64,000 nucleotides of DNA, taken from Candidatus Saccharimonadota bacterium (lineage in GTDB: Bacteria; Patescibacteriota; Saccharimonadia; Saccharimonadales; Saccharimonadaceae). The notes beneath the pieces were generated by a model that was given only the letters and a program-made list of their open reading frames with translations, did not search any database and was not told where the DNA came from. A program made the position numbers and the translations under genes. How positions within the stretch are numbered: position 1 is the stretch's first letter; the number at the start of each line of letters is the position of its first letter. Where the stretch lies: the NCBI GenBank assembly GCA_017459705.1, contig JAFUCJ010000003.1, positions 1-64,000 of the forward strand, given 5' to 3'. Positions 1 to 30,150 of the stretch are shown in pieces.

Positions 1-354
1 AAGATTGATTTTACGACATTTAGTACCACGGAAGAAATAGTATGCGGGACATGGATAGATGGGAAAAAAATATACAAAAAATCGTTTAAAAACACCTTTT
101 CTGGTGGTACAAATAGCTTACCAACGGGTGTGTCAGATATAGATTTAATTATTGATTGGAGAAATACGGTTGTACCATCTGCAAATAGGCAACACATTAT
201 CGGATTTAGAACTGGTGGCACAGGTGATGATGCATATATTATGATGGGTGTTCAATTTAATAAAGATGAAAATGCCCTTAAATTTGAGTTTGGTAGTCAA
301 TATCAGGGTGTTAAAACAGTTTATACCACTATATGGTATACAAAATCTAGCTAG
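1..354 (+). CDS. Tail-fibre/surface-like protein, 5' end missing
   Basis: The frame is open from the first base to a TAA/TAG stop at 352-354, so the gene begins left of the window. The visible 117 residues start KIDFTT and end VYTTIWYTKSS. The segments GTWIDGKKIYKKSF and the closing IWYTK resemble the C-terminal modules of phage tail and receptor-binding proteins; this is a family-style resemblance, not a firm assignment. Its first 19 bases are repeated in inverted orientation at 665-683, at the start of the convergent gene that ends on the same bases (stops overlap at 351-354). A start at an internal ATG (241) or GTG (130) is unlikely because coding similarity extends upstream. A host surface protein is an alternative. 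Confidence 0.5.
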   Translation, partial: KIDFTTFSTTEEIVCGTWIDGKKIYKKSFKNTFSGGTNSLPTGVSDIDLIIDWRNTVVPSANRQHIIGFRTGGTGDDAYIMMGVQFNKDENALKFEFGSQYQGVKTVYTTIWYTKSS

Positions 355-683
355 GATAGAATTTCGATAATAAACGCCCACCAGTAGACAGTAGTTGGTA
401 ACGTATCGTTGTATATATTCTGATTTTGTATTTGCGCTCTTCCGCCACTATCGATATAGCCACTAACATTAATGGCGTGGTCAGATGATACGCCACCTGC
501 ACCACCAAAGAATACATGGGATGCATCGAGATCTGCCGGTTTTGCGGAAGCGGTCCACTCATTCCAAGTGATACCGCTCATTGACCTACTTGTTGAACCC
601 TTTTTGAAATAAGCTACTGCATTGTCAGAAATAGGTAGCTTGGTCCATCCATTAGAGTCGGTTGATGTCGTAAAATCAATCTT
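1..683. repeat. Inverted repeat bounding two convergent cassettes
   Basis: Bases 1-19 (AAGATTGATTTTACGACAT) occur in reverse complement at 665-683. Both copies encode the same KIDFTT at the same reading-frame position. The repeat probably extends left of the window edge, so its full length is not known. The arrangement of convergent frames with matching 5' ends is that of shufflon-type invertible segments. Confidence 0.6.
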
Positions 684-692
684 AGTCGACAT
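351..692 (-). CDS. Convergent tail-fibre-like cassette, possibly silent
   Basis: A 113-residue frame from ATG at 692, open further upstream to a TTG at 722. It begins MSTKIDFTTSTDSNGW and shares the KIDFTT stretch with the convergent frame at 1-354, while the rest differs (FFGGAGGVSSDH, VYWWAFI near the end). No good ribosome binding site or promoter precedes it on its own strand, and the in-frame upstream residues RKINGEKW look like more coding sequence. This fits a silent alternative 3' cassette that could be joined to a constant 5' gene part by inversion. It may equally be a small expressed paralogue. Function unknown beyond phage-like flavour. Confidence 0.45.
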   Translation of the reverse strand: MSTKIDFTTSTDSNGWTKLPISDNAVAYFKKGSTSRSMSGITWNEWTASAKPADLDASHVFFGGAGGVSSDHAINVSGYIDSGGRAQIQNQNIYNDTLPTTVYWWAFIIEILS

Positions 693-705
693 CCATTTCT
701 CGCCG

Positions 706-734
706 TTGATTTTTCGGGTCAAATTTGGTATAAT
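706..734 (+). promoter_or_regulatory. Sigma-70-like promoter
   Basis: TTGATT at 706-711 and TATAAT at 729-734 are separated by 17 bp. It points towards the small gene at 810 and lies just outside the start of the convergent cassette, so it would be unaffected by an inversion of 1-692. Confidence 0.6.
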
Positions 735-754
735 ATAAATAAGTGAACTCGGAG

Positions 755-780
755 GTCGTCCATCGGTTTTGGTGGACGAC
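755..780 (+). promoter_or_regulatory. Leader hairpin before the gene at 810
   Basis: GTCGTCCATC at 755-764 pairs with GGTGGACGAC at 771-780 (10 bp with one wobble) over a six-base loop. It sits between the promoter at 706-734 and the start codon. It has no U-tract, so it is a leader structure and not a terminator. Confidence 0.4.
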
Positions 781-809
781 TTAAAACTATCCTCAGATGG
801 AGGTAAGTT

Positions 810-1094
810 TTGCGAGAAAAAGTATACTACTTTAAGCTGTATATGCCGGATGTCAAAAAGACAAATGGGGACTTGGCACTATTGGCATGGTATTCCGCCT
901 TAAAAGACTATGCAAAACGATTTAGGCGCGACAAGAATGGCTTTACGCGAGTTTCATCTGCGGTCTTTGAAAAAGACTTTGGGATTAACCGCGTGAAGGT
1001 TTGGAGAATGAACAAGAAGCTCGCAGATTTGGGGCTTATTTCCCTAGATGTTGCGAGGGGTGGTCGAACTTGGGTAGGATTTAAGGTGCTGTAA
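810..1094 (+). CDS. Small winged-helix-like protein
   Basis: 94 residues, starting at TTG 810 with GGAGG at 799-803. The middle (VSSAVFEKDFGINRVKVWRMNKKLADLGLI, read across about residues 47-79) has the helix-turn-helix and wing spacing of small DNA-binding proteins of phages and plasmids: a recognition-like helix, then LADLGLISLDVARGGRTWVGFKV as a beta-hairpin wing. A replication-initiator or regulator role is possible. It is preceded by a promoter and hairpin and followed by a structured spacer leading to the tyrosine recombinase. No closer family was recognised. Confidence 0.5.
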   Translation: MREKVYYFKLYMPDVKKTNGDLALLAWYSALKDYAKRFRRDKNGFTRVSSAVFEKDFGINRVKVWRMNKKLADLGLISLDVARGGRTWVGFKVL

Positions 1095-1242
1095 GTGTTG
1101 TAGTTATTACAACGACATTAAACGGAGGTATTGAGGAGGTATCTCTGTTTTTTGTTTGTCAAGAGCTACTTGTGGAAAAGTATGTGCAAAACTATGTGGA
1201 AACTATGTGTAAAAGTGCCGGAAAACTGTGGAAAAATAAGCA

Positions 1243-1301
1243 TTTGCTGTTTCAAAAGTGAAACATCAAGCTACCCCTGTTTGCTGTTTCAAAAGTGAAA
1301 C
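1243..1301. repeat. Two 22-bp direct repeats, each with an internal palindrome
   Basis: Copies lie at 1243-1264 and 1280-1301, 37 bp apart, and read TTTGCTGTTTCAAAAGTGAA plus AC. Each contains the palindrome GTTTCA-AAAG-TGAAAC. Placed just upstream of a tyrosine recombinase, they could be recombinase binding (core or arm) sites or operators for a repressor. Confidence 0.55.
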
Positions 1302-1372
1302 GGCTATAAACCATATAACCATAATAGTAATAGTAGGCTCTCGCAAAAATCTTTTTAATAATTTTTTAATAC

Positions 1373-1420
1373 GGGCGCACGCGGCTTCTTGCTTGGAGGG
1401 GAGCCGAAGCCGGTGCGCCC
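1373..1420 (+). promoter_or_regulatory. Strong stem-loop in recombinase leader
   Basis: GGGCGCAC (1373-1380) pairs with GTGCGCCC (1413-1420), and CGGCTTC (1382-1388) pairs with GAAGCCG (1406-1412), around a 17-base loop containing GGAGGGG. It ends 7 bases before the AAGGAG ribosome binding site of the recombinase. No U-tract follows, so it is not a simple terminator; it may control translation or be a DNA recognition site. Confidence 0.45.
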
Positions 1421-1437
1421 TTGTGCAAAGGAGCAAT

Positions 1438-2292
1438 ATGAGAAAGATTGAAAAGCAAATCGAAACTTACCTTGATTGGTGCAAGAATGTGCGCAAGCTC
1501 AGTCCGGTCACCATGGAGCGCAGGAAATGCTTTTTCAGGTATTTCCTTAATGAAGTGCCTGCGCAAAGTCTGCAACAGCTATCCAACCAAATGATTGAGG
1601 ACTTTGTAAGGAATGGTAATTGGACCGGAAGCACGACCAACGAGTATATTGTCGAAATTAAAACCATGCTTCGGTTTTTTAAGAAACGCGGTGAGCGGCT
1701 TCGCCATATCAACCTTGAGCAAATAGTCAGGGTAAAAGAAACCCCGCGCCGAAAGGTATTCTATACAAGGGAGCAAATCGACGAAGTGCTGGATGATTGC
1801 GACGAATTGGAGTGGTTACTGATCCGGCTGTGCTTCGACTGCGGCTTTAGGATCCACGAGCTGGCAGCACTCCGGCTCGAAAATATCGACGGTTGTAAAG
1901 TTGCTTTTATTGGGAAAGGTCGCAAAATCCGTGAAACCTATATGAGCCACGAAGCACGGAAACGGCTGGACGAGTGGATTGAGGACCAAGGCATCACAGA
2001 TTATCTGTGGGTCAAATATTACAAAGGTGCGCCAGCAAAGGCTCGCACCAAGGAGTCATTGAGCGCAATTATGCGAGGTGCTTTTTATCGGAATGGCTAC
2101 ACCGATTTTCATCCGCATGCGCTGCGCCATTCATTCGCGACCGAAATTTGCCGGAACGGTGCGCCGCTCGAAGTCGCGAAAGAAATGCTGGGTCACGCAA
2201 ATATTCAGACCACCATGCGATATGTGCATTCGTTAGAAGGTCACCTTGAGGAAATGTTTATCAAGTACCGGTATAATGTAGCAGCCCATTAA
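1438..2292 (+). CDS. Tyrosine recombinase (XerC/D or integrase family)
   Basis: 284 residues from ATG 1438, chosen because AAGGAG stands 5-10 bases ahead; a longer frame from 1258 has no such site. The N-terminal SAM-like core-binding domain covers about residues 1-85 and the catalytic domain 100-280. The catalytic set is complete: Arg in CGFRIHEL (about 135), Lys in GKGRK, HALRH (His 227, Arg 230), LGH, and the nucleophile Tyr in MRYVH (about 262). It cuts and rejoins DNA at specific sites. Its neighbours, an inverted-repeat cassette and 22-bp repeats, suggest that it is either the invertase of the cassettes at 1-692, as Rci is for the R64 shufflon, or the integrase of a small element. Confidence 0.9.
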   Translation: MRKIEKQIETYLDWCKNVRKLSPVTMERRKCFFRYFLNEVPAQSLQQLSNQMIEDFVRNGNWTGSTTNEYIVEIKTMLRFFKKRGERLRHINLEQIVRVKETPRRKVFYTREQIDEVLDDCDELEWLLIRLCFDCGFRIHELAALRLENIDGCKVAFIGKGRKIRETYMSHEARKRLDEWIEDQGITDYLWVKYYKGAPAKARTKESLSAIMRGAFYRNGYTDFHPHALRHSFATEICRNGAPLEVAKEMLGHANIQTTMRYVHSLEGHLEEMFIKYRYNVAAH

Positions 2293-2302
2293 TATCGCAC
2301 GA

Positions 2303-2342
2303 AAAATCAACACTATTATGTACAATTAGTGTTGATTTTTTA
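2303..2342 (+). terminator. Intrinsic terminator after the recombinase
   Basis: AAAATCAACACTA pairs with TAGTGTTGATTTT over an 11-base loop and runs into TTTTTTATTT. It lies 11 bases after the recombinase stop codon. Confidence 0.85.
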
Positions 2343-2377
2343 TTTCGTTTGTGGTAAAATGAAAGTAGGTTTGGATA

Positions 2378-2512
2378 ATGGAAAATCCAAAGGAACTTAT
2401 AAAATCGGGTGAAAATGACCTTGAGAATATAAGTTTTTCTTACTTTATCATAAATTATGATATAATTGGTTGGAAGTGGGAGCAGATTAACGACCTTAAG
2501 GAGGTATTTTAG
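2378..2512 (+). CDS. Possible 44-residue protein coupled to NUDIX gene
   Basis: ATG 2378 opens a 44-codon frame ending in TAG at 2510-2512; the next gene's ATG begins at 2513, so the two would be translationally coupled. A promoter-like TGTGGTAAAAT ends at 2359, 18 bases upstream. The product begins MENPKELIKSGENDLENISF and ends EQINDLKEVF: acidic, with an aromatic middle (SYFIINYDIIGWKW). The last codons also supply the AAGGAGGT ribosome binding site of the NUDIX gene. No family recognised; a chance open frame cannot be excluded. Confidence 0.4.
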   Translation: MENPKELIKSGENDLENISFSYFIINYDIIGWKWEQINDLKEVF

Positions 2513-3166
2513 ATGAATAATCGGGAGATTGCGCATAGTAGCTACGAAAAGTTGGTTTCTCGTTTGCCAGATTTTTTCGTTAATCAACATGGAGTTGAAT
2601 ATGTTTTGGACTCTAAGAAGATTCATGAGTGGGAGGATGCGACTGGTGAGACTATTGGTGTAATTTATGAAAGCGAATATGAGATTTTGGTAGTTGATTT
2701 AATAAATAAAAATGGCAAATTAAAATCTCATGGTCGTATTATCTTGCCAAATAATGGAGTAATTATTATTCCTAAAGTTGGCGACAAGTTTGTTCTTGAA
2801 GATCAATATCGTTATCCAATATGCCAAAGTTTTTTGGCTTTTCCACGTGGTCATTGTGAGTCAAATTCCGCTCCTCGAGATGATGCTATCAGGGAAGTAA
2901 AGGAAGAACTCGGTGGTGCCGATATACACAATCTGCGCTATATTGGTAAAACTTATCCTGAAACCCATTCAAACGCTTGGTTTTGTAGCGTGTGGCTTGG
3001 AGAAGTCGATGAAAAGTCTCTTAAATTGCAAAAAGGGTTTGAAGGCATTGACAATTTAGTATTGCTTAGCGAATCCCAAATTAATGAAAAAATTGCAAAA
3101 GGAGAGATTAGCTGCGGTTATACCTTAGCGGCATGGGCATTATACTGCAACGCTCGATTAGATTAA
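2513..3166 (+). CDS. NUDIX hydrolase
   Basis: 217 residues. The NUDIX box spans about residues 118-140, with G at GHCE and REVKEELGG at its end; the usual Glu between them is replaced by Ser, while the metal-binding REVKEE core is intact. The domain position and the following YPETHSNAWF region resemble ADP-sugar pyrophosphatases, which hydrolyse nucleoside diphosphates linked to another group. The N-terminal 60 residues are extra. The ribosome binding site AAGGAGGT is very strong. It is a single-gene unit ended by the terminator at 3178. AT-rich composition differs from the core region and points to transfer. Exact substrate unknown. Confidence 0.8.
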   Translation: MNNREIAHSSYEKLVSRLPDFFVNQHGVEYVLDSKKIHEWEDATGETIGVIYESEYEILVVDLINKNGKLKSHGRIILPNNGVIIIPKVGDKFVLEDQYRYPICQSFLAFPRGHCESNSAPRDDAIREVKEELGGADIHNLRYIGKTYPETHSNAWFCSVWLGEVDEKSLKLQKGFEGIDNLVLLSESQINEKIAKGEISCGYTLAAWALYCNARLD

Positions 3167-3177
3167 TCTAACATCAA

Positions 3178-3209
3178 AGTCCCACATTATATGTGGGACT
3201 AAATTTTTT
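3178..3209 (+). terminator. Intrinsic terminator after the NUDIX gene
   Basis: AGTCCCACAT and ATGTGGGACT form a perfect 10-bp stem with a three-base loop, followed by AAATTTTTTC. Confidence 0.85.
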
Positions 3210-3379
3210 CAATTTGGTTTTGGAAGGTGAATTTTGACTGAGAATAGAATAAGAGAAACTGGTTGATCTATGAATTCAAGATTCCGATTTTTGAATTTAT
3301 AGCTAACCTGTGTATCTGTTATTATAGATATGATTATAACATATTTTTGTGTTATAATGTGATTATACGAGGAGAATGT

Positions 3380-3790
3380 ATGAAAATATGTATTTGTTGT
3401 AGTCTGTCATTTACTGATAAAGTAAAAGAAATAGCTAATGAATTAGAAAAACGCGGACATGAGGTTTTGTTGCCGAACGGGGTATTGATTGATGCGATTT
3501 ATAAGCCGGATTTTGATCCGGTGGCCGCAAAGCATGACAATGGTTATGATGCGATAAGAGATCATTTTAACAAAATAAAAGATTCGGATGCGGTTTTAGT
3601 TTGTAATTTTACAAAAAATGGTGTGGAGAACTATATTGGTGCGAATACGTTTTTGGAAATGGGGTTTGCTTATTATGTTGGGAAGCCGATTTTCACGATC
3701 AATCCGTTGCCGAATTATGACTATATCAATGATGAAATACGGAGTTTTAATGTAAAAAACCTAGATAATGATTTGGCTAAGATAGTTTAA
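3380..3790 (+). CDS. Nucleoside 2-deoxyribosyltransferase-like protein
   Basis: 136 residues from ATG 3380, chosen for the GGAG site just upstream and the TATAAT at 3353-3358; a longer frame starts at 3263 but would include the promoter. The N-terminal MKICICCSLSF strand, the IKDSDAVLVCN segment and FLEMGFAYYVGKPIF match the layout of nucleoside 2-deoxyribosyltransferase-like folds, in which a Glu (here FLEMG) acts near the sugar. Members handle deoxynucleosides or nucleotides. In this AT-rich block with two NUDIX enzymes, a role in nucleotide scavenging is plausible but inferred. Confidence 0.7.
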   Translation: MKICICCSLSFTDKVKEIANELEKRGHEVLLPNGVLIDAIYKPDFDPVAAKHDNGYDAIRDHFNKIKDSDAVLVCNFTKNGVENYIGANTFLEMGFAYYVGKPIFTINPLPNYDYINDEIRSFNVKNLDNDLAKIV

Positions 3791-3856
3791 AGACATTTAT
3801 TGATGTTTCGGAAAAAGGAGGAGACTTAACTACTCTGAGTCGAGTCTTGTGTAATT

Positions 3857-4462
3857 CTAGACGATTTTCTTTTGCCATGATTTTTGGTGGCATTTCGGGC
3901 AGGTCATTTTGCGGGTGCGGCCAAAATGTGGGGCGAAATAAACGCTGGAATATTTTGGTATGTAGCGGTGGCCGCATTTTTGACATTCGTATTTGCCGGC
4001 TTCGGTTTCGATTTTGACACAAAAACTGGAACCGATGAGGATTGAGGCTAGGCCGAGGATAATGAGGATAATTCTGGCCCAAGTGGGAAGACTTTCGGTG
4101 AAGCCGGCGACGAAGATCAGGGTTATAGATGCGATAGATGACATGTAGCCGATAACGTTTTCGTAGAGGAGGAACTTTTTATTTTGAGCGGTTTCGATTT
4201 TGGCGAATTCTCTGAGATTATCTTCGGCTTTTCGTGCATATTCTGTAGTGGTTAGTTTTTCGCCGGACAACAGTTCGTTATATGATATATCAAATAGTTT
4301 GCATAATTTTGCCATGTTGTTGGCGTCCGGCAGGCAGATTCCGCGCTCCCATTTGGAAACGGAACGATTGGAGATGTCTAGTTTTTCCGCTAAACTTTCT
4401 TGGGTAAAATTGCCCTTTTGGCGGAGTTTTGCGATGAACTTGCCGATTTTTTCTAAATCCAT
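3857..4462 (-). CDS. XRE-family regulator with membrane segments and zinc ribbon
   Basis: 201 residues in three parts: an XRE helix-turn-helix at residues 5-60 (FTQESLAEKLDISNRSVSKW), two likely membrane helices at about 100-145 (IGYMSSIASITLIFVAGF, IILIILGLASILIG), and a C-terminal four-cysteine zinc ribbon (CQKCGH ... CPKCHQ). It may bind DNA while tethered to the membrane and sense an envelope or redox signal through the ribbon. A promoter-like AT-rich stretch and AAGGACG lie upstream on the minus strand. It converges with the gene at 3380. Target genes are unknown. Confidence 0.75.
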   Translation of the reverse strand: MDLEKIGKFIAKLRQKGNFTQESLAEKLDISNRSVSKWERGICLPDANNMAKLCKLFDISYNELLSGEKLTTTEYARKAEDNLREFAKIETAQNKKFLLYENVIGYMSSIASITLIFVAGFTESLPTWARIILIILGLASILIGSSFCVKIETEAGKYECQKCGHRYIPKYSSVYFAPHFGRTRKMTCPKCHQKSWQKKIV

Positions 4463-4754
4463 TGTCGTCCTTTCTTTTAGTATATATCTATTTTAGAAAA
4501 AATAAACACAAAAGGCTACAAACCTAAGGTAGAATATAGTATTTTACGAGTATATCCGCGTCGAATTGATTGGTCTTTGCAGATTTTATGATATAATAAC
4601 AGATAAGAATTTAACGAAAGGTTGGGCTTGAATTTAAAGATAGGAATCTTGTATTTTTAAACCAACCAATGACTCCATATATACCATTCTCTGTTAAAGT
4701 CCGACTGCCAAAACCAAACTGGAAAAATATCCATATTGGGACACTTCAGTAATT
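4463..4754. other. Intergenic, little recognisable
   Basis: AT-rich spacer. A TGATATAATAAC promoter-like word lies near 4588-4600 on the plus strand. A 27-codon frame (4669-4752, starting MTPYIPFSVK) follows it but has no clear ribosome binding site and overlaps only the tail of the gene at 4755. It may be a remnant of a decayed gene. Confidence 0.35.
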
Positions 4755-5501
4755 TTAGTTATTTAATCTATTCAGCAACTCTCTCCAAGCATCGCTATAA
4801 TAGCCATCAAAATATTTGCCAGCCTCATTAATCTGTACCCACTCCGCTTTTTCAACTTCATCCTCTTGCATTTTAATTTCATCACTTAATGGCTCGGCAA
4901 TAAACAATAGTATTTCTTTATAGGTGATTCCATCGTGCCTTAAGTGCCCAGTCCTAATCGGCTCATCATCAACAATCTTAACATCCAAATTAGTTTCTTC
5001 CTTAGTCTCCCGAATAGCCGTCTCTATATCAGTTTCACCATCCTCCTGATGTCCTTTCGGAAACGACCAAAAAAGTTTACCGTCATCATCATTAGCGCCA
5101 ATCAAAAGCACCTTATTATCTTTCAAAATAATACATCCACAGCTCTTCTCTTTGTTATCTTTAATTTTATCTTTCCAACTATTATCAATTTTATAAACAC
5201 TCTCTAGCTCATTACTATTTCGCTTAAAAACAAACATGGTTTTGCATTTCGGGCAAACCCAAGCATCTTGCCCTAATTCAAGACAAACATCAAACCACGT
5301 ATCCACATTCCTATAGTCATTCCCAAATTCTGGGTCTTTTCGTTTTTCTTCATAATCTTTATTTACTCTTTCAATTATTTTGTTATATTTCTTCTCTTCT
5401 AAATAATCAACATTTGTCTTAATCAAATAATTCTCAAAAAGATTATCATTACTACCATTACACATTCTTTCACCACAATTTATACAGAAAAACGTTGCCA
5501 T
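4755..5501 (-). CDS. NUDIX hydrolase with N-terminal zinc-binding region
   Basis: 248 residues. Residues 1-100 carry two CxxC pairs (CINCGERMC near the start; CPKCKTMF near 82), which suggests a split zinc ribbon. The NUDIX domain covers about 118-245 with a complete box: GHQEDGETDIETAIRETKEE, followed by TNL. Such enzymes cleave nucleoside diphosphate derivatives, including damaged nucleotides or mRNA caps. The zinc part recalls NudC-like proteins, but the sequence is otherwise different, so NudC identity is not claimed. A monocistronic AT-rich gene transcribed away from the NYN gene at 5632. Confidence 0.8.
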   Translation of the reverse strand: MATFFCINCGERMCNGSNDNLFENYLIKTNVDYLEEKKYNKIIERVNKDYEEKRKDPEFGNDYRNVDTWFDVCLELGQDAWVCPKCKTMFVFKRNSNELESVYKIDNSWKDKIKDNKEKSCGCIILKDNKVLLIGANDDDGKLFWSFPKGHQEDGETDIETAIRETKEETNLDVKIVDDEPIRTGHLRHDGITYKEILLFIAEPLSDEIKMQEDEVEKAEWVQINEAGKYFDGYYSDAWRELLNRLNN

Positions 5502-5545
5502 ATTTTTATTATACCAAATATCTAGTTTTTTTCGCTAAAGTGTGC

Positions 5546-5616
5546 TATAATAAATGAGTATTACGATGAGGGTAATGCGAACGGAGAAATACCTAAGCAA
5601 ATCCCTCTTTTTTTGT
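5546..5616 (+). promoter_or_regulatory. Promoter with terminator-like hairpin ahead of NYN gene
   Basis: TATAAT at 5546-5551 would start a short RNA that contains GAGGG (about 5569) paired with CCCTC (about 5603) followed by seven T residues. This looks like an attenuator or a very short RNA. A second promoter, TGTGGTATAAT (5619-5624), lies beyond the T-tract and places its start site at the NYN start codon. Confidence 0.4.
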
Positions 5617-5631
5617 GGTATAATATCAGAT

Positions 5632-6141
5632 ATGAACAGACTGCGAAACATAGCTTTTATTGACGGTCAGAATCTAAATTACAGCACCGTAGATAGCAAA
5701 CCGTCTTGGAAAGTCGGATTAAAACAATTCCGTACTTACCTAAAAGAAAAATACCAAGTTGATGAGGCATATTACTTCTTAGGTTGCATAGATAATAATT
5801 ATTCCGAAATGTACAACAATATCCAGAAAGCTGGTTTCATTTTAGTTTTTCGTGAACATAATCCAAAATTCTTATCAGTTAAAAAAGGCAATGTCGATAC
5901 TGATATAGTTTTCTCAATAATGAAAAAACTATACAAGCATGAAGATTTTGAAAGGATAATCTTGGTTTCTGGCGACGGAGATTATTATAAAATGGTTAAA
6001 TTCCTAGTCGAAGAGAACAAACTATGTAAAATTTTAATGCCAGTCAAAAGTCGTTCATCTTCTCTCTATCGCCAAATTCCCGCAAAATACCGAGATTATT
6101 TAGATAAACCAGAAATTAAAAAGAAAATCGAGCTGAAATAA
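5632..6141 (+). CDS. NYN-domain (PIN-like) ribonuclease
   Basis: 169 residues from ATG 5632. NYN/LabA-type nuclease fold: IAFIDGQNLNY at the N-terminus, NVDTDIVFSIMKK in the middle and ILVSGDGDYYKMVKFL near 110, which supply the conserved metal-binding aspartates. The family cleaves RNA. The start was chosen because TATAAT ends 7 bases before it (a leaderless arrangement) and because the family begins at this point; an in-frame ATG at 5554 would add 26 unrelated residues. It is followed 20 bp later by ychF, but the strong composition change suggests a separate origin. Confidence 0.8.
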   Translation: MNRLRNIAFIDGQNLNYSTVDSKPSWKVGLKQFRTYLKEKYQVDEAYYFLGCIDNNYSEMYNNIQKAGFILVFREHNPKFLSVKKGNVDTDIVFSIMKKLYKHEDFERIILVSGDGDYYKMVKFLVEENKLCKILMPVKSRSSSLYRQIPAKYRDYLDKPEIKKKIELK

Positions 6142-6160
6142 CAGAAAGGACAGGCAGATT

Positions 6161-7159
6161 ATGAATTTAAAGATCGGAATCGTCGGCCTCCCCAACGTCG
6201 GCAAATCTACACTATTTAACGCCCTCACAAACGCCGGCGCACTCGCCGCAAATTATCCTTTTGCCACCATCGAACCAAACGTCGGCATCGTTCCAGTTCC
6301 CGACGAACGCCTAGACCATCTCGCCAAAATGTACGAAGCCGACAAAGTCACACCTGCCACCGTCGAGTTCGTCGATATCGCCGGCCTAGTGCAAGGCGCC
6401 AGCAAAGGCGAAGGCCTCGGCAACAAATTTCTCGCCCACATTCGCGAGTGCCAGGCCATCTGCCACGTCGTTCGCGCCTTCAAATCGAGCGACATCATCC
6501 GCGCCGACAGCAAACCAGAAGACGACATCATCAAACAAGCCAAAGACGACATCGACATCATCAATCTCGAATTACAGCTCGCCGACGAGGAAACCAAAGC
6601 CAAAATCGCCGCCAAACGCAAAAAAGACCCTTCCGACGACAACATTCCATTCCTCACCGACAAGCCAGTTATCTACATGTTCAATGTCGACGAAAAGGGC
6701 CTCACCGATCGAGATTTGCAAAGTAAACTTTGCGAGCTCGTTAGTTCTGGCGCCACTGAGCAAGCCATTTTCGTCAACGCCAAACTCGAAGAAGAAATGT
6801 CCGGCATGTCCCGCGAGGAACGCAAAGAGTTCCTAAAAAGCTACGGCATCGAGCACGACGCCCTCGAAGAACTCATCAAGGCCGCCTACGACGTTCTCGG
6901 TCTTCAATCGTTCCTCACCGCCGGCAAAAAAGAATGTCGCGCCTGGACCATCAAAAAAGGTTCCACCGCCCCACAAGCTGCCGGTACCATCCATACCGAC
7001 TTCGAACGTGGCTTCATTGCCGCCAGCATCATGAACTACGACGACCTCCAAGCACTCGGCTCCGAGCAGGCCGTCAAAGCCGCCGGCAAACTCCGCACCG
7101 AAGGTAAGACGTACATCATGCAAGACGGCGACGTCGTCGAATTCAAATTTAACGTATAG
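6161..7159 (+). CDS. ychF: YchF/OLA1-type P-loop GTPase/ATPase
   Basis: 332 residues, slightly short for the family (about 363). GLPNVGKSTLFNAL is the Walker A motif at residues 8-21, followed by the G2/G3-like VEFVDIAGLVQGAS, a coiled-coil insertion around 125-170, and a C-terminal TGS/ubiquitin-like domain (AWTIKKGSTAPQAAG, IMQDGDVVEFKFNV). It replaces the usual NKxD specificity motif with FNVDEK, as is typical for these ATP-preferring members. YchF binds ribosomes and modulates translation and stress responses. The ribosome binding site AAAGGA precedes ATG 6161. First of the GC-richer core genes. Confidence 0.95.
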   Translation: MNLKIGIVGLPNVGKSTLFNALTNAGALAANYPFATIEPNVGIVPVPDERLDHLAKMYEADKVTPATVEFVDIAGLVQGASKGEGLGNKFLAHIRECQAICHVVRAFKSSDIIRADSKPEDDIIKQAKDDIDIINLELQLADEETKAKIAAKRKKDPSDDNIPFLTDKPVIYMFNVDEKGLTDRDLQSKLCELVSSGATEQAIFVNAKLEEEMSGMSREERKEFLKSYGIEHDALEELIKAAYDVLGLQSFLTAGKKECRAWTIKKGSTAPQAAGTIHTDFERGFIAASIMNYDDLQALGSEQAVKAAGKLRTEGKTYIMQDGDVVEFKFNV

Positions 7160-7253
7160 CCACGAAGTCCACCAACCACTAGACTCAACGTATAGCATAC
7201 GCCCACCCGACACTCAGGTTCAGCACATAACGCATGCTGCTCGACAATTTCTT

Positions 7254-8255
7254 TTAGTCATCAAATCCCAACGCAAACCAATCGTCCACTTCAAAATCTT
7301 TGCCACTCACCACTGCCACCGTTAATAGCAAATCATATTCCCTAAATCCAGAGTTCTTTTTGAGAAACACTTCTGCCGCAAATTTCATTTGGTCACGTTT
7401 TTTCTTGTCAACAGCGCCCAACCCTCCACCGCGCGCATTATCCTTGCGATATTTCACCTCAGTAAAACACAGTTTCATCGTCGCCATATTTACCGATACA
7501 ATATCAATTTCACAATACTTATTCTTGAAATTCCGCGCGATAATCATATGGTCGTGTTTTTCGAGGTATTCCGCCACCTTCTGTTCGGCAATCTTGCCAA
7601 TCTCCGTTGTATTTTCGCACGAAGCATCTTCATCGCCTGCGTTATTCATTTCATCAAACCCACATATGCTTCTGCATGGCTCAAAACTTTTCCTATGCTC
7701 CGGGCATATCCCCAACCTCTCTATCGCCTCTCTGTGAAACGCAGTTCCATATCCCATATGTTTTTCAAATCCATATTCAGGATATTTCTTAGCTAGTTCC
7801 ACCATATATTTATCTCTTGCCACCTTCGCAATAATCGACGCCGCACTCACTTCCTTCACCAGATCGTCCGCTTTTGGCATGGTCGACACATATTGCCCCA
7901 GTGTCGTCTCAGAAAGGAAATTCACCTTGCCATCAATAATTATTTGTGAAAACGGCTCGTGCCGTTCTCTTATAGCCGTCACCGCCCGCCGTGTCGCCAA
8001 CCTCAGCGCTTTACCTATGCCAATCTCATCTATTTCCTGAGACGATACCCACCCAAGCCCAGTAGCCTTTGCTCTCGTCATAATAACGTCCGACAATTCC
8101 TCACGTTTCTTCGCAGTAAGTTTCTTGGAGTCCCTGAGCTCCAACATCCAATCAAATCTAGGATACGGCAAATACTCTGGCAAAATCACCGCACCCACGA
8201 CAAGCGGACCCGCTAGGGGTCCGCGTCCAACTTCATCTATCCCGAGTATCGCCAT
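7254..8255 (-). CDS. rnhB: RNase HII fused to YraN-type nuclease domain
   Basis: 333 residues. Residues 1-200 are RNase HII: GIDEVGRGPLAGPLVVGAV with the catalytic DE, DSKKLTAKKRE, and KADDLVKEVSAASIIAKVARD. It removes ribonucleotides and RNA primers from DNA. Residues 215-333 are a YraN/UPF0102 domain with the PD-(D/E)xK residues kept (CEIDIV, FTEVKYR). In most bacteria rnhB and yraN are separate neighbours; here they form one frame. The start ATG overlaps the TAA of rplS (TAATG at 8253-8257), so translation is coupled to L19. A fusion created by loss of a stop codon fits the observed order. Confidence 0.93.
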   Translation of the reverse strand: MAILGIDEVGRGPLAGPLVVGAVILPEYLPYPRFDWMLELRDSKKLTAKKREELSDVIMTRAKATGLGWVSSQEIDEIGIGKALRLATRRAVTAIRERHEPFSQIIIDGKVNFLSETTLGQYVSTMPKADDLVKEVSAASIIAKVARDKYMVELAKKYPEYGFEKHMGYGTAFHREAIERLGICPEHRKSFEPCRSICGFDEMNNAGDEDASCENTTEIGKIAEQKVAEYLEKHDHMIIARNFKNKYCEIDIVSVNMATMKLCFTEVKYRKDNARGGGLGAVDKKKRDQMKFAAEVFLKKNSGFREYDLLLTVAVVSGKDFEVDDWFALGFDD

Positions 8256-15408: not shown

Positions 15409-16454
15409 TCCGTTCCTCCATTGCCCAATAAAGCCTCATCAATTGGGACAGCCTGCGTCTGCACAAGCTCATTTAATGTTATCCTATACTCACTCGCCTG
15501 CTCCATAAATCCCGTCTGATCACAAATGTTTATCATCATCGTATAATACCGAAGGATGTCCGCTTGGTTAGTCAAAATCGCAGCAGTCTCATCAAGTATT
15601 CTTAAAGCACCAGTAGCATCCTTGCCCACATTATAAACAAAAGTAGCATATGCTAACGCGACCTCTTTTCTTAAATCAAAATCGCTCTTCACAAAAGCAC
15701 TCTCATAATCAGATACCGCATCCTCATACGTATATCCCTCATCCGCAAGATATTTATCGTTCACCGCCTGACTAAATACTGCCGCGATTACCGAGGGCGA
15801 CGGGTTATCTCCATAACCCTCAGGATGCAAATCCAAAGTCACACTTTCGCCCCCACCCCCGTTACTATTACACCCAGTCGACGTCCCCCCGTTATTTACC
15901 CCTATCACGACCCCCACGATTACCAGCACTACAACCACACCACACGAGGCTCCAATCCAAATCTTCTGAGCCTTACTTAATCGTCCACGAGAAGCACGTT
16001 CCGCCGCCATACGCTGTTTTTCTTCCTTCGCGCGCCGCTCCGCCGCGTCACGTTGCCGGCGCCTATCGTTATCATCCACCAGATTCACCCCCGACATATT
16101 CTGTCGTCGTCGCAGATTGCGCCAAAACATTAGTCGCGACAAACCACGCTCACGCCCATCATTCGACACTAACGTCGTCCGACCATCTTTCGCCACCGCG
16201 CCCCCAATCACACCACCATTAGCGCCCCCAGTCACGCCACCATTGGCACCCTCAATCGCACCACCATTGGCACCCTCGGCCGCCATACCAGTAGCCCTCA
16301 CATCCGTAGCCACTTGGTCATCAGCCCTCACCCCCGCAGAAACCTCACCGCCCGACGCCTCGCCGCCCCTCTGTTTTTCCTCTAAAATCCTGCGCGCTCG
16401 CTCACTCGCCGCGATTTTCTCATACACAGATTCGCCAGTATCTCCGTCTGCCAT
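15405..16454 (-). CDS. Membrane protein with low-complexity N-terminus and helical exterior
   Basis: 349 residues. Residues 1-160 are cytoplasmic and low-complexity: repeats of the type GANGG-V-T/I-GG near 65-90, then a charged coiled-coil stretch rich in RR, AAE and KEE. One membrane helix lies at about 168-190 (GASCGVVVVLVIVGVVIGVN). The exterior, about 210-349, is helical with repeat-like units (ALAYATFVYNVGKDATGAL) recalling tetratricopeptide folds. The stop overlaps the start of the giant surface protein (ATGA). It may anchor or export its partner. No family name is supported. Confidence 0.65.
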   Translation of the reverse strand: MADGDTGESVYEKIAASERARRILEEKQRGGEASGGEVSAGVRADDQVATDVRATGMAAEGANGGAIEGANGGVTGGANGGVIGGAVAKDGRTTLVSNDGRERGLSRLMFWRNLRRRQNMSGVNLVDDNDRRRQRDAAERRAKEEKQRMAAERASRGRLSKAQKIWIGASCGVVVVLVIVGVVIGVNNGGTSTGCNSNGGGGESVTLDLHPEGYGDNPSPSVIAAVFSQAVNDKYLADEGYTYEDAVSDYESAFVKSDFDLRKEVALAYATFVYNVGKDATGALRILDETAAILTNQADILRYYTMMINICDQTGFMEQASEYRITLNELVQTQAVPIDEALLGNGGTE

Positions 16455-16550
16455 GTCTACTGCTCTGTATTACGCTCCATATACATCTATCTTACCACAA
16501 TCATCATCAAAAATCCACTCCAAATTCTTCACTTTTTTATCGAACCCCCA

Positions 16551-17900
16551 TCATAACAACCCAGCCATATACAACGGCAAATACACCACGTCGCCGTCAA
16601 CTTTCAAATCTTTTGTGTGCAATACATACCTTGTGCCGACCTTTTTGCCGAATTTCACCTTGAACTTATCCAGTGACGTGTGTTTATCGTACCCGCCCGA
16701 TTTAACCTCAATCGGATTCAATTTATTTTCTTGCACAATCAAAAAATCCACTTCCATATCATTCTTGGCGTTTTTATCATCGTTTACTGCATAAAAATAC
16801 AACTCATATCCATTCGCTCGCAGCGACTGCGCCACCATATTTTCCATAATCATCCCCTCGTTTACACCCAACTTATCAAGCAAAATGTCCCGATAAATCT
16901 TATTATCTAAATACGGCTTCTCATAGAAAACCTGCGTCACCAGCAGACCAGTATCACCAGAATAACATTTCACACTAGCCTCCATACCAGAAAGCGCCAG
17001 CCCAACGCTTGGGTCGGTCGTGTTGTGACACAGATTCACAATCATTGACTCATCTAACCAATCAAAAGCACCCTCGTAATTGCGCCCCCGCGCGTCGTCC
17101 GAAATCGACGCCAACACAAAACGTTTATTCTGTTTGTTTAGCTGCCCAGGCAATCCATTATAAATCGCAAGCACTTTGTCATCGTTCCCATCTGAGTACT
17201 TATGAATATCTTCCCTATAAAGCCTCAAAATCGCTTTCTTCATGATATCAGCCGCCTCAAAACTCTCTTTTTCCCGGTATGCCACCACCGCCTGCGGCAT
17301 CCCACCTACCAGCATGTATGTCCGAAAACGCTTCATAATCTCACGATGTAGTACCCCCACCTCTGCGCGCTTTTGGTATTTCTCCCTCACGAACGGCATC
17401 GTCATCTCATCGCCCATCGCCCACAGAAATTCCTCAAAATCCAAAGGATACATTCGCAATCGCTCTTCTTCTGATGGTATTACAATATCTTGTACATTCT
17501 TTCTTAAACTAATCAGTGACCCCGTTTCAATGTAATCATACCTTCCATCCTCGACCAAATACTTAATCAGTGAACGCGCATCCGGACAAAGTTGCACTTC
17601 ATCAAAAATAATCACCGAACGTCGCTCTACCAGCTTCACCCTAGCAAAAGTTTCAAGTGTGCTAAAGATCTGATTCAAATCATCGCGACTCTCGCTAAAC
17701 AATTTTTTGATCATCAGCGGCGCTTTATTAAAGTCAAGCAGTATATAACTCTCATACTCACGCTTCGCAAAATCCTCGACCACCGTACTTTTACCCACAC
17801 GCCTCGCTCCTTCCACCAGCATCGCAGTACGTCCATGGCTTGCCTGCTTCCACGCCAACAATTTATCATATATTTTACGCTTAAGCTTATTTTCTTCCAT
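16551..17900 (-). CDS. AAA ATPase with C-terminal DUF4143 domain
   Basis: 449 residues. Walker A VEGARRVGKSTVV near 31-43, Walker B SVIIFDEVQLCPDA near 95-108, sensor ETGSLISLRKN, and a C-terminal nuclease-like DUF4143 region with LNPIEVKSGGYDKHT, which has the E-x-K signature of PD-(D/E)xK folds. This family is abundant in CPR genomes, archaea and some gut bacteria; its biological role is unsettled. Monocistronic, with TATAAT upstream on the minus strand and GAGGAG before the ATG. A second, divergent relative is encoded at 33771-35051 inside the DGR locus. Confidence 0.85.
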   Translation of the reverse strand: MEENKLKRKIYDKLLAWKQASHGRTAMLVEGARRVGKSTVVEDFAKREYESYILLDFNKAPLMIKKLFSESRDDLNQIFSTLETFARVKLVERRSVIIFDEVQLCPDARSLIKYLVEDGRYDYIETGSLISLRKNVQDIVIPSEEERLRMYPLDFEEFLWAMGDEMTMPFVREKYQKRAEVGVLHREIMKRFRTYMLVGGMPQAVVAYREKESFEAADIMKKAILRLYREDIHKYSDGNDDKVLAIYNGLPGQLNKQNKRFVLASISDDARGRNYEGAFDWLDESMIVNLCHNTTDPSVGLALSGMEASVKCYSGDTGLLVTQVFYEKPYLDNKIYRDILLDKLGVNEGMIMENMVAQSLRANGYELYFYAVNDDKNAKNDMEVDFLIVQENKLNPIEVKSGGYDKHTSLDKFKVKFGKKVGTRYVLHTKDLKVDGDVVYLPLYMAGLL

Positions 17901-28437: not shown

Positions 28438-30150
28438 TTACATTTTTTCTGGTATTTCCATACCGAGCAGTCCCAGCCCGTGCGTCATCACTGCTAGATA
28501 CGCCTGCACCATCCGCACGCGCCGTCCCTCTTCTGCCGCCCCTACCACCGGACATTTCTCATAAAATCTCGAAAACTCTTGCGACACCTCATACAAATAA
28601 TTCGCTACCTTATGCGGCGCCAATTCCGCTACTGCCGCGTCAAGCAAATCTCTGTACCCTGCAATTTTCCGCATCAGAGTATGTTCCTCCGGCACCATAC
28701 TTGCCCCATCCGCCGCACTCGCTCCATCTACGCCACTTACCCTATCAGCCACGCTCGCTCCATCCGCACTACTCGCCCCCTCGACAATCCGCTTCGCCCG
28801 CACACATGAATATAGCAGGTACGGCCCCGAGTTCCCGGTCATCTTCACCGATTCTCTCGGGTCAAAAATGATATCTCCGCCCATCTTATATTTGAGGAAC
28901 GCGTACTTCGTCGCCGCAAGCGACACCGTCCGATCGTCAGAGCCAAAATCCTCCGCGAGCGCCGTCGCCACCATATCGAGCACGTCCACCGCTTTCAAGA
29001 AATTGCCTTTTCTAGATGACATTTTTACTCCGCCCGGCAATTTTACCAGCCCATGCGTCAAATGCACCGTCCGCGCCACCAACTCCGGAGCATACTGCTC
29101 CACCGATTTCAGCACAACTTTCATGTAATCCAGTTGCTCTGATCCAGTAATCACGATCGACTTGTCGAAATGATAGTCCGCCTCTTTCTGAAAAATCAGC
29201 CCTACGTCCTTCGCCTCATAAGTCGGCACACCCTCTTTGTTGATAAATACCCTCGTGTGTAGTCCGTACTTCTCACCGTCAAACACCACCGCACCGTCCG
29301 ATTCCTCGTACACTCCCGCCGCTTCTTCACGCTTCACCGTTGCCAGCCCCAGCCACGCCACAGTCGATTCCGGATAGTACTTGTCAAACTTCAATCCTAT
29401 CGACGCGTAAAAATGCTTGAAATAATCATACGACAGCTCCCGCCCGCGCCAGTACAAATCCGCCAGCGGCGTGCCATGAATATCCTCGGCGTTGATTTTG
29501 TATATTTCCTTGTTTAGCCGCGTAATCTCCGCTTTCGCCTCCGCATCATCTTCGTACGCCGCCGTACCCTCGATATAGCATTTTGCTATATCCTCAATCG
29601 TTAGCTCACTCACTTGCTTTCGCTGTAATATATACATTGTCTTCGCAACGTGTAGTCCCACATCACCACCAAAATTCGCCCTGACTACCTTCGCGCCAGC
29701 GTACTCCAACAATCGCGCAATCGCATCACCTACTACCGAAGTATATAGATGCCCCACATGTAGTACCTTAAACGGATTCGGGTCACTAAACTCACAAACT
29801 ACCGTTTTCCCACGATATTCACCTGATGATATATTTTTATCAAAATCCGTCACAATTCCATCCATTTCCGCCAGTAGATATTCGTCAGATGATATAAAAT
29901 TAATAAATCCTGGCGCCGTCGCAAAACTTTGCACCCCCCGCATTTCCGTCGCAGAGTCATCTTGCACTTCTGCCACCAATTCCTCGGCTATCACCATCGG
30001 CGACTTATGCGCTACCCCAGCCAATTTCAGTGGCGCATTACTCGAATAGTCCGCCTCGATATTCCCGGGCGCTTCCGTCACTTCCGGTTCAAAATCCACC
30101 CCGTACAATTTCAAAATCGCTTTTTTTAGTAAATCTCTGATTCTATCCAT
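28438..30150 (-). CDS. argS: Arginyl-tRNA synthetase
   Basis: 570 residues. Add-1 domain at the N-terminus (ILKLYGVDFEPEVTEAPG), HIGH-like FKVLHVGHLYTSVVGDA near 128, KMSKS-like GGVKMSSRKGN near 378, and the C-terminal anticodon-binding helices (FSRFYEKCPVVGA). Charges tRNA-Arg; a tRNA-Arg(CCU) lies just upstream. An unusual repeated stretch of about 35 residues built on ADGAS/VADRVS units (residues about 455-490) interrupts the C-terminal part. Confidence 0.95.
   Translation of the reverse strand: MDRIRDLLKKAILKLYGVDFEPEVTEAPGNIEADYSSNAPLKLAGVAHKSPMVIAEELVAEVQDDSATEMRGVQSFATAPGFINFISSDEYLLAEMDGIVTDFDKNISSGEYRGKTVVCEFSDPNPFKVLHVGHLYTSVVGDAIARLLEYAGAKVVRANFGGDVGLHVAKTMYILQRKQVSELTIEDIAKCYIEGTAAYEDDAEAKAEITRLNKEIYKINAEDIHGTPLADLYWRGRELSYDYFKHFYASIGLKFDKYYPESTVAWLGLATVKREEAAGVYEESDGAVVFDGEKYGLHTRVFINKEGVPTYEAKDVGLIFQKEADYHFDKSIVITGSEQLDYMKVVLKSVEQYAPELVARTVHLTHGLVKLPGGVKMSSRKGNFLKAVDVLDMVATALAEDFGSDDRTVSLAATKYAFLKYKMGGDIIFDPRESVKMTGNSGPYLLYSCVRAKRIVEGASSADGASVADRVSGVDGASAADGASMVPEEHTLMRKIAGYRDLLDAAVAELAPHKVANYLYEVSQEFSRFYEKCPVVGAAEEGRRVRMVQAYLAVMTHGLGLLGMEIPEKM

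Follow-up and report, generated by a model that had tools for sequence, protein, structure and literature searches.

The window analysed here is a stretch of 64,000 nucleotides whose first base is the first base of a 175,589-base contig, in a host genome of 728,099 bases that consists of ten contigs and is 99.87% complete. At its left edge lie two convergent reading frames. The plus-strand frame (1-354) is variable cassette A, the 3' part of a tail-tip gene with a tip of the WIDGK type in the expressed orientation, and has 82% amino acid identity to residues 44-160 of a full-length gene of a related phage (L078:4758-5240); because the contig ends at base 1, the constant 5' part of the window gene lies off it. 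The minus-strand frame (351-692 from an in-frame ATG just outside the repeat described below, or to 722 from an upstream TTG) is variable cassette B, parked in the convergent orientation, at whose place related phages have unrelated cassettes. Cassette B itself belongs to neither of the two tip families described below, and the sole relative found for it is a weak, partial match (E 6e-5) in a 527-aa protein from a member of the genus. The stops of the two frames overlap, at 352-354 on the plus strand and 351-353 on the minus strand, inside or next to a palindromic TAGCTA (348-353) that is found at the same place in all four phages considered here. P0001 and P0002 of the window had no match in 50,697 phage records, and P0001 had none in viral contigs.

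Both frames contain the same 19 nucleotides. AAGATTGATTTTACGACAT occurs at 1-19 on the plus strand, as the left copy and putative crossover site, and at 665-683 on the minus strand; the copies are exact inverted repeats (100% complementary) and are read in the same phase as KIDFTT in both frames. The original prediction had described these 19 bases as shared, inverted and in equal codon phase, and the two stops as overlapping, and the sequence bears out both descriptions. The two copies are the only exact ones in the 728-kb genome, where the sole further match has 3 mismatches, and about 2e-4 inverted 19-nt pairs at most 1 kb apart would be expected by chance anywhere in 64 kb. In four phages, that of the window and three relatives, convergent cassettes lie between copies of this 19-mer, with one substitution in one copy of one relative. 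This substitution, A to G at position 13 of the left repeat of G101 (L090, contig 28440-28458), makes the two copies of that phage differ and might affect or lock its switch. Single copies of the 19-mer in genome contigs of Aquimarina and Zetaproteobacteria were set aside, about two exact chance matches being expected in 257 Gb.

The three relatives were found in different ways. Scans of viral contigs with P0002 and with the recombinase described below yielded G100 (IMGVR_UViG_3300011008_000321, locus L078), the recombinase scan yielded G101 (IMGVR_UViG_2061766007_000904), and a scan with the 19-mer yielded L082 (JAFRJB010000131.1), a contig from goat jejunum whose recombinase has 99% identity to that of the window. 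The L082 contig is binned in a Clostridia MAG, possibly in error; its closest integrated relative sits in the small genome studied here. With 29,952 bases, a 19-base terminal overlap, and homology to G100 and L082 that crosses its ends, G101 very probably represents a whole circular genome of about 29.93 kb. Among its products are a RecT-like protein, an endolysin, and terminase, portal, major head, tape-measure and tail proteins.

In all three relatives the constant 5' gene part, for which the original prediction had proposed to look upstream, is present. The tail-tip gene closes the tail module, preceded by the tape-measure gene and other tail genes; it starts with MAYQNVSFSAGETLTATKMNQMAANDAAFHDGTGIA(A/D)GAITAD, and its reading frame runs on across the repeat. 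There is thus no ordinary start codon at the left repeat: at 43 codons from the ATG, the reading frame of the relatives has GCGGAC|AAGATT, which gives a constant N-terminus of 43 aa.

Comparison of the four phages places the cassette boundaries at the repeats. The 200 bases outside the repeats are 97-99.5% identical between phages. Over the 200 bases inside them, identity is 37-45% between right-hand cassettes (55% in the single pair that shares a type) and 38-44% between left-hand cassettes (79% between the window and G100). On the left, homology between phages ends at the inner edge of the repeat, within 3 bp; on the right, in comparisons with the window, it restarts at 665, the repeat itself, in two of three cases and at 661, 4 bp before the repeat, in the third. 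The domains of receptor-binding type are thereby delimited almost to the base.

The pair of cassettes differs in every phage, and two tip families recur among them. The WIDGK family (GxWIDGKxIY) is on the plus strand, that is expressed, in the window and G100, and on the minus strand, that is parked, in G101 and L082; across orientations these tips have 50-52% nucleotide identity, against a background of about 40%. The second, C-type family is on the minus strand in G100 and on the plus strand in L082 (29% identity, E 2e-6). It is predicted to adopt a C1q/TNF-like jelly-roll (pLDDT 75) that resembles lectins and phage tail-fibre tips, a model that fits receptor binding. The fold matches of the WIDGK tip model (m1f54c653a4d2) were set aside for low confidence (pLDDT 63). 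G100 and L082 form a clean pair, in which the WIDGK tip and the C1q/TNF-like tip have swapped places. No identical cassette was found in both orientations among these phages, and cassettes in opposite orientations have diverged. Since homologous cassettes lie in opposite orientations in different phages, the comparison, which is one between phages, shows that the segment has apparently been inverted, and has been in both orientations, during their history. The contig of the window breaks at the first base of the left repeat, which would fit a population of mixed orientations; other causes are possible.

To the right of the cassettes, a promoter-like site, TTGATT-17-TATAAT (706-734, plus strand; a consensus match only), may serve the genes of a winged-helix-like protein and a recombinase, and its 5' end shares TTGATTTTNCG with the repeats. 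The 64-kb window has four copies of TTGATTTTNCG against 0.34 expected: one in each repeat, one close to the right repeat on its outer side, beyond the cassette, and one shortly past the recombinase gene; G101 has four matches at corresponding places. This distribution is a post hoc hint of sites that may be common to the cassette and the recombinase region. The small winged-helix-like protein P0004 (810-1094, plus strand) has weak similarity to phage replication-initiation families (E about 1e-3), and is followed by two direct, operator-like 22-nt repeats with palindromic cores (1243-1264 and 1280-1301, plus strand). An equivalent small gene precedes the recombinase in the prophages L058, L062, and L070. 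The module of winged-helix-like gene, tandem repeats and tyrosine recombinase is common to the window (1243-1301), L058:9801-9859, L062:9106-9157, and L070:8796-8850; its two tandem repeats have palindromic cores about 34-37 bp apart and a sequence that differs per phage, and are possibly operators of an integration or immunity switch.

The recombinase itself, P0003 (1438-2292, plus strand), is a 284-aa armless tyrosine recombinase (PF00589), a probable phage integrase and candidate invertase. It matches Pfam Phage_integrase at 7e-30, and R138, H227, R230, H253, and Y262 are present and invariant in the alignment with its relatives, in agreement with the earlier claim of a tyrosine recombinase with all catalytic residues at this place. 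It consists of a SAM-like core-binding and a catalytic domain only, without an arm-binding domain, ends 22 residues after Tyr262 without an Rci-like C-terminal extension, and is XerA/XerC-like by NCBIfam at scores below the cut-offs. No invertase separate from the integrase was found: the complete relative G101 encodes a single PF00589 protein (the prophage of the window being incomplete), G100 and G101 have no match to the serine recombinase family PF00239, and ten further phage proteins scanned against Pfam included no recombinase, although some small ORFs have no assignment.

The sequence from 1 to about 2450, cassettes excluded, is 96-97% identical to three independent phage contigs, which stay phage at about 2450, where the window changes to host sequence. 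The core of attP in the three relatives is an inverted repeat, TTTTTCTTACTTT-ATCAC(or T)-AAAGTAAGAAAAA, of which the window has the left half only (2434-2450, plus strand): the related phages go on with AAAGTAAGAAAAA and the window with other sequence, which marks the junction of phage and host at about 2450. The likeness of the 19-mer to the attP arms looks weak, as judged by eye only. By this comparison, window positions 1-2450 are the right end of a temperate prophage of about 30 kb. The chromosome that holds it is small (0.73 Mb) and of Patescibacteria type, probably Saccharimonadales, as its size, its standard genetic code and many related families with similarly sized genomes suggest. 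The link to the host is direct, the prophage end sitting inside a 175-kb host contig. The remaining prophage body was absent from the stretches of the bin that were examined, and an empty attB was not found in relatives, which had no homology to the junction region. Because P0003 lies directly beside attP, it probably also integrates the phage, and closeness to the cassette does not by itself identify it as the invertase.

We consider it likely that the locus is a two-state inversion system in a phage tail-tip gene. The last late gene encodes a tail-tip protein of about 160 aa and of receptor-binding type, made up of the constant 43-aa N-terminus, the 19-nt site (KIDFTT) and a variable C-terminal tip, and a second tip, unrelated in sequence, lies tail-to-tail on the other strand, where the inverted copy precedes it. 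A site-specific recombinase acting on both copies would flip a segment of about 683 bp and change which tip is fused to the constant part, resulting in a two-state host-range switch. The likeliest enzyme would be the neighbouring P0003, probably the integrase of the phage as well; that P0003 is the invertase is somewhat favoured over other assignments. The comparisons show this anatomy, the constant part in the relatives, cassette boundaries that coincide with the repeat, and homologous cassettes in either orientation in different phages; which enzyme inverts the segment, whether inversion goes on within a population, and receptor binding by the tips are inferred. Flipping a tail tip is a known strategy of phages for changing the cells that they can bind.

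Other explanations of the layout were weighed against this one. That it is an assembly artefact of the contig end, where the left repeat begins at contig base 1, has next to no probability, as independent contigs from other samples have the same layout in their interior. A pair of ordinary convergent genes whose common N-terminal sequence arose by duplication would account for the in-frame ATG that the minus frame has of its own, nine bases ahead of the repeat, in four of four phages. Beyond the 19 nt, however, the two are unrelated, the plus gene runs from the constant part across the repeat, and inspection of the sequence revealed no evident ribosome-binding site ahead of the minus ATG, which leaves this origin very improbable. 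The repeats could also be conserved linkers between which cassettes were swapped by homologous recombination or gene replacement, with no programmed inversion. The cassettes have clearly been exchanged, each phage having a different pair, and their flanks are nearly identical, as expected for recombining relatives; against this, both frames are kept in phase with the same inverted 19-mer, a parked tip that lacks a constant part is understandable chiefly if flipping can bring it into use, and the opposite orientation of homologous cassettes needs either inversion or repeated independent replacement. We regard such swapping alone as improbable.

A stronger contender, although still rather unlikely, accepts the inversion as real and assigns it to a host recombinase acting in trans, Xer-like or serine, with P0003 only as the phage integrase. 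The host encodes one Xer-like and three serine recombinases, P0003 is placed beside attP like an ordinary integrase, its prophage homologs in L058, L062, and L070 have no such cassette at the module, and inversion in trans has been proposed for a second bifidophage locus that has no recombinase of its own (PMC6109161). This explanation, however, requires a suitable enzyme in every host of the four phages, while P0003 is the only recombinase detected in the complete phage genome, and the excess of TTGATTTTNCG noted above is a post hoc hint of shared sites. Homology cannot decide whether P0003 is the invertase, because its relatives are mixed, with 36-40% identity to chromosomal loci beside inverted repeats and to prophage integrases without a cassette, and because P0003 is sister to all its relatives from the host genus (100/100 support).

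In the phages Mu and P1, the serine invertases Gin and Cin drive a two-state inversion of tail-fibre C-termini. The system proposed here resembles them in this exchange between two states and differs in that no serine invertase (PF00239) was detected in the complete relative G101. Tail-fibre inversion of the Gin/Cin type has been contrasted with Rin (PMC6109161), the closest known system, through which inversion of receptor-binding protein (RBP) genes by a tyrosine recombinase is already known in phages (PMC6109161). In the Rin RBP shufflon of bifidobacterial (PMC6109161) and Eggerthella lenta (PMC8778435) prophages, a tyrosine recombinase acts with a constant RBP N-terminus and variable C-termini. 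As in Rin, the locus is phage-encoded and has a constant RBP N-terminus, alternative C-termini of about 100 aa, an adjacent tyrosine recombinase, and crossover repeats that are short, inverted, asymmetric and located at the cassette starts. It differs in having two cassettes instead of several, repeats of 19 nt instead of 11 or 8 bp, a host from another phylum, and no second recombinase that we could find; the E. lenta Rin enzyme is distinct from the integrase (PMC8778435), and the bifidophage paper compares a separate integrase (PMC6109161).

The original prediction had likened the locus to the R64 shufflon. A shared site, alternative 3' cassettes, a protein of receptor-binding type, and opposite orientations between phages agree with that interpretation; the locus has a single two-state segment in place of the several of a shufflon, and the Rci-like extension is lacking. 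The likeness to R64 and Rci lies in the tyrosine recombinase and in the exchange of 3'-end cassettes. The sfx sites of R64 combine a 7-bp core with a conserved arm of 12 bp, 19 nt in all, the other arm being variable (PMC11852207), and the 19 conserved nt found here, with variable sequence inside, equal them in length and possibly in asymmetric design. R64 has several segments, whereas here one invertible segment has two sites; the gene encodes a phage tail protein instead of a pilus tip, and Rci has an additional C-terminal domain that P0003 does not have. Compared with both Rin and the R64 shufflon, the locus stands out by its two-state switch, its single recombinase and its host of Patescibacteria type, and two of the relatives also carry a diversity-generating retroelement. 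For Saccharibacteria, no earlier report of phase variation by inversion was found in the open-access papers searched.

This retroelement lies in G100 (reversed, 16029-16961) and G101 (L089:8534-11740). It comprises a target of 378 aa, encoded between terminase and portal, together with an Avd-like ORF, a template repeat, and a reverse transcriptase, which in G101 is recognized by PHROG (E 2e-70) and by Pfam RVT_1; in the pairs of template and variable repeat of G100 and G101, 15/16 and 13/14 base substitutions fall on template adenines. If both readings are true, two independent systems that diversify tropism would be contained in a 30-kb genome, and the combination of inversion and retroelement leads one to expect that the choice of receptor is under strong pressure in these phages. 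Little work has been done on phages of Patescibacteria and on the ways in which they deal with the surfaces of their hosts. The full proposal, that a single armless tyrosine recombinase both integrates a Patescibacteria phage and, by flipping, switches its tail-tip gene from one of two receptor-binding domains to the other, in a lineage that also has a diversity-generating retroelement, stands in our view at about an even chance. If one recombinase does integrate and invert, it would differ from the described Rin systems and would make a compact enzyme tool.

The prophage ends upstream of ychF and rnhB (window 1438-8255). A chromosomal homolog of P0003 is found in the ychF/rnhB neighbourhood of some genus members (L068) and near ychF in others (L065, L066), and this neighbourhood is a possible integration hot spot. 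Within the host genus, P0003 homologs also lie between or near inverted repeats of up to 149 identical bp (L067:8110-9391, L071:7630-9011, L069:6355-10738, L064:11231-11800, and L065:11315-12000). The repeats of L067, L069, and L071 include the beginning of divergent genes for surface proteins, with their signal peptide, and those of L064 and L065 flank the divergent promoter region of two paralogous operons. These arrangements look like phase-variable surface loci.
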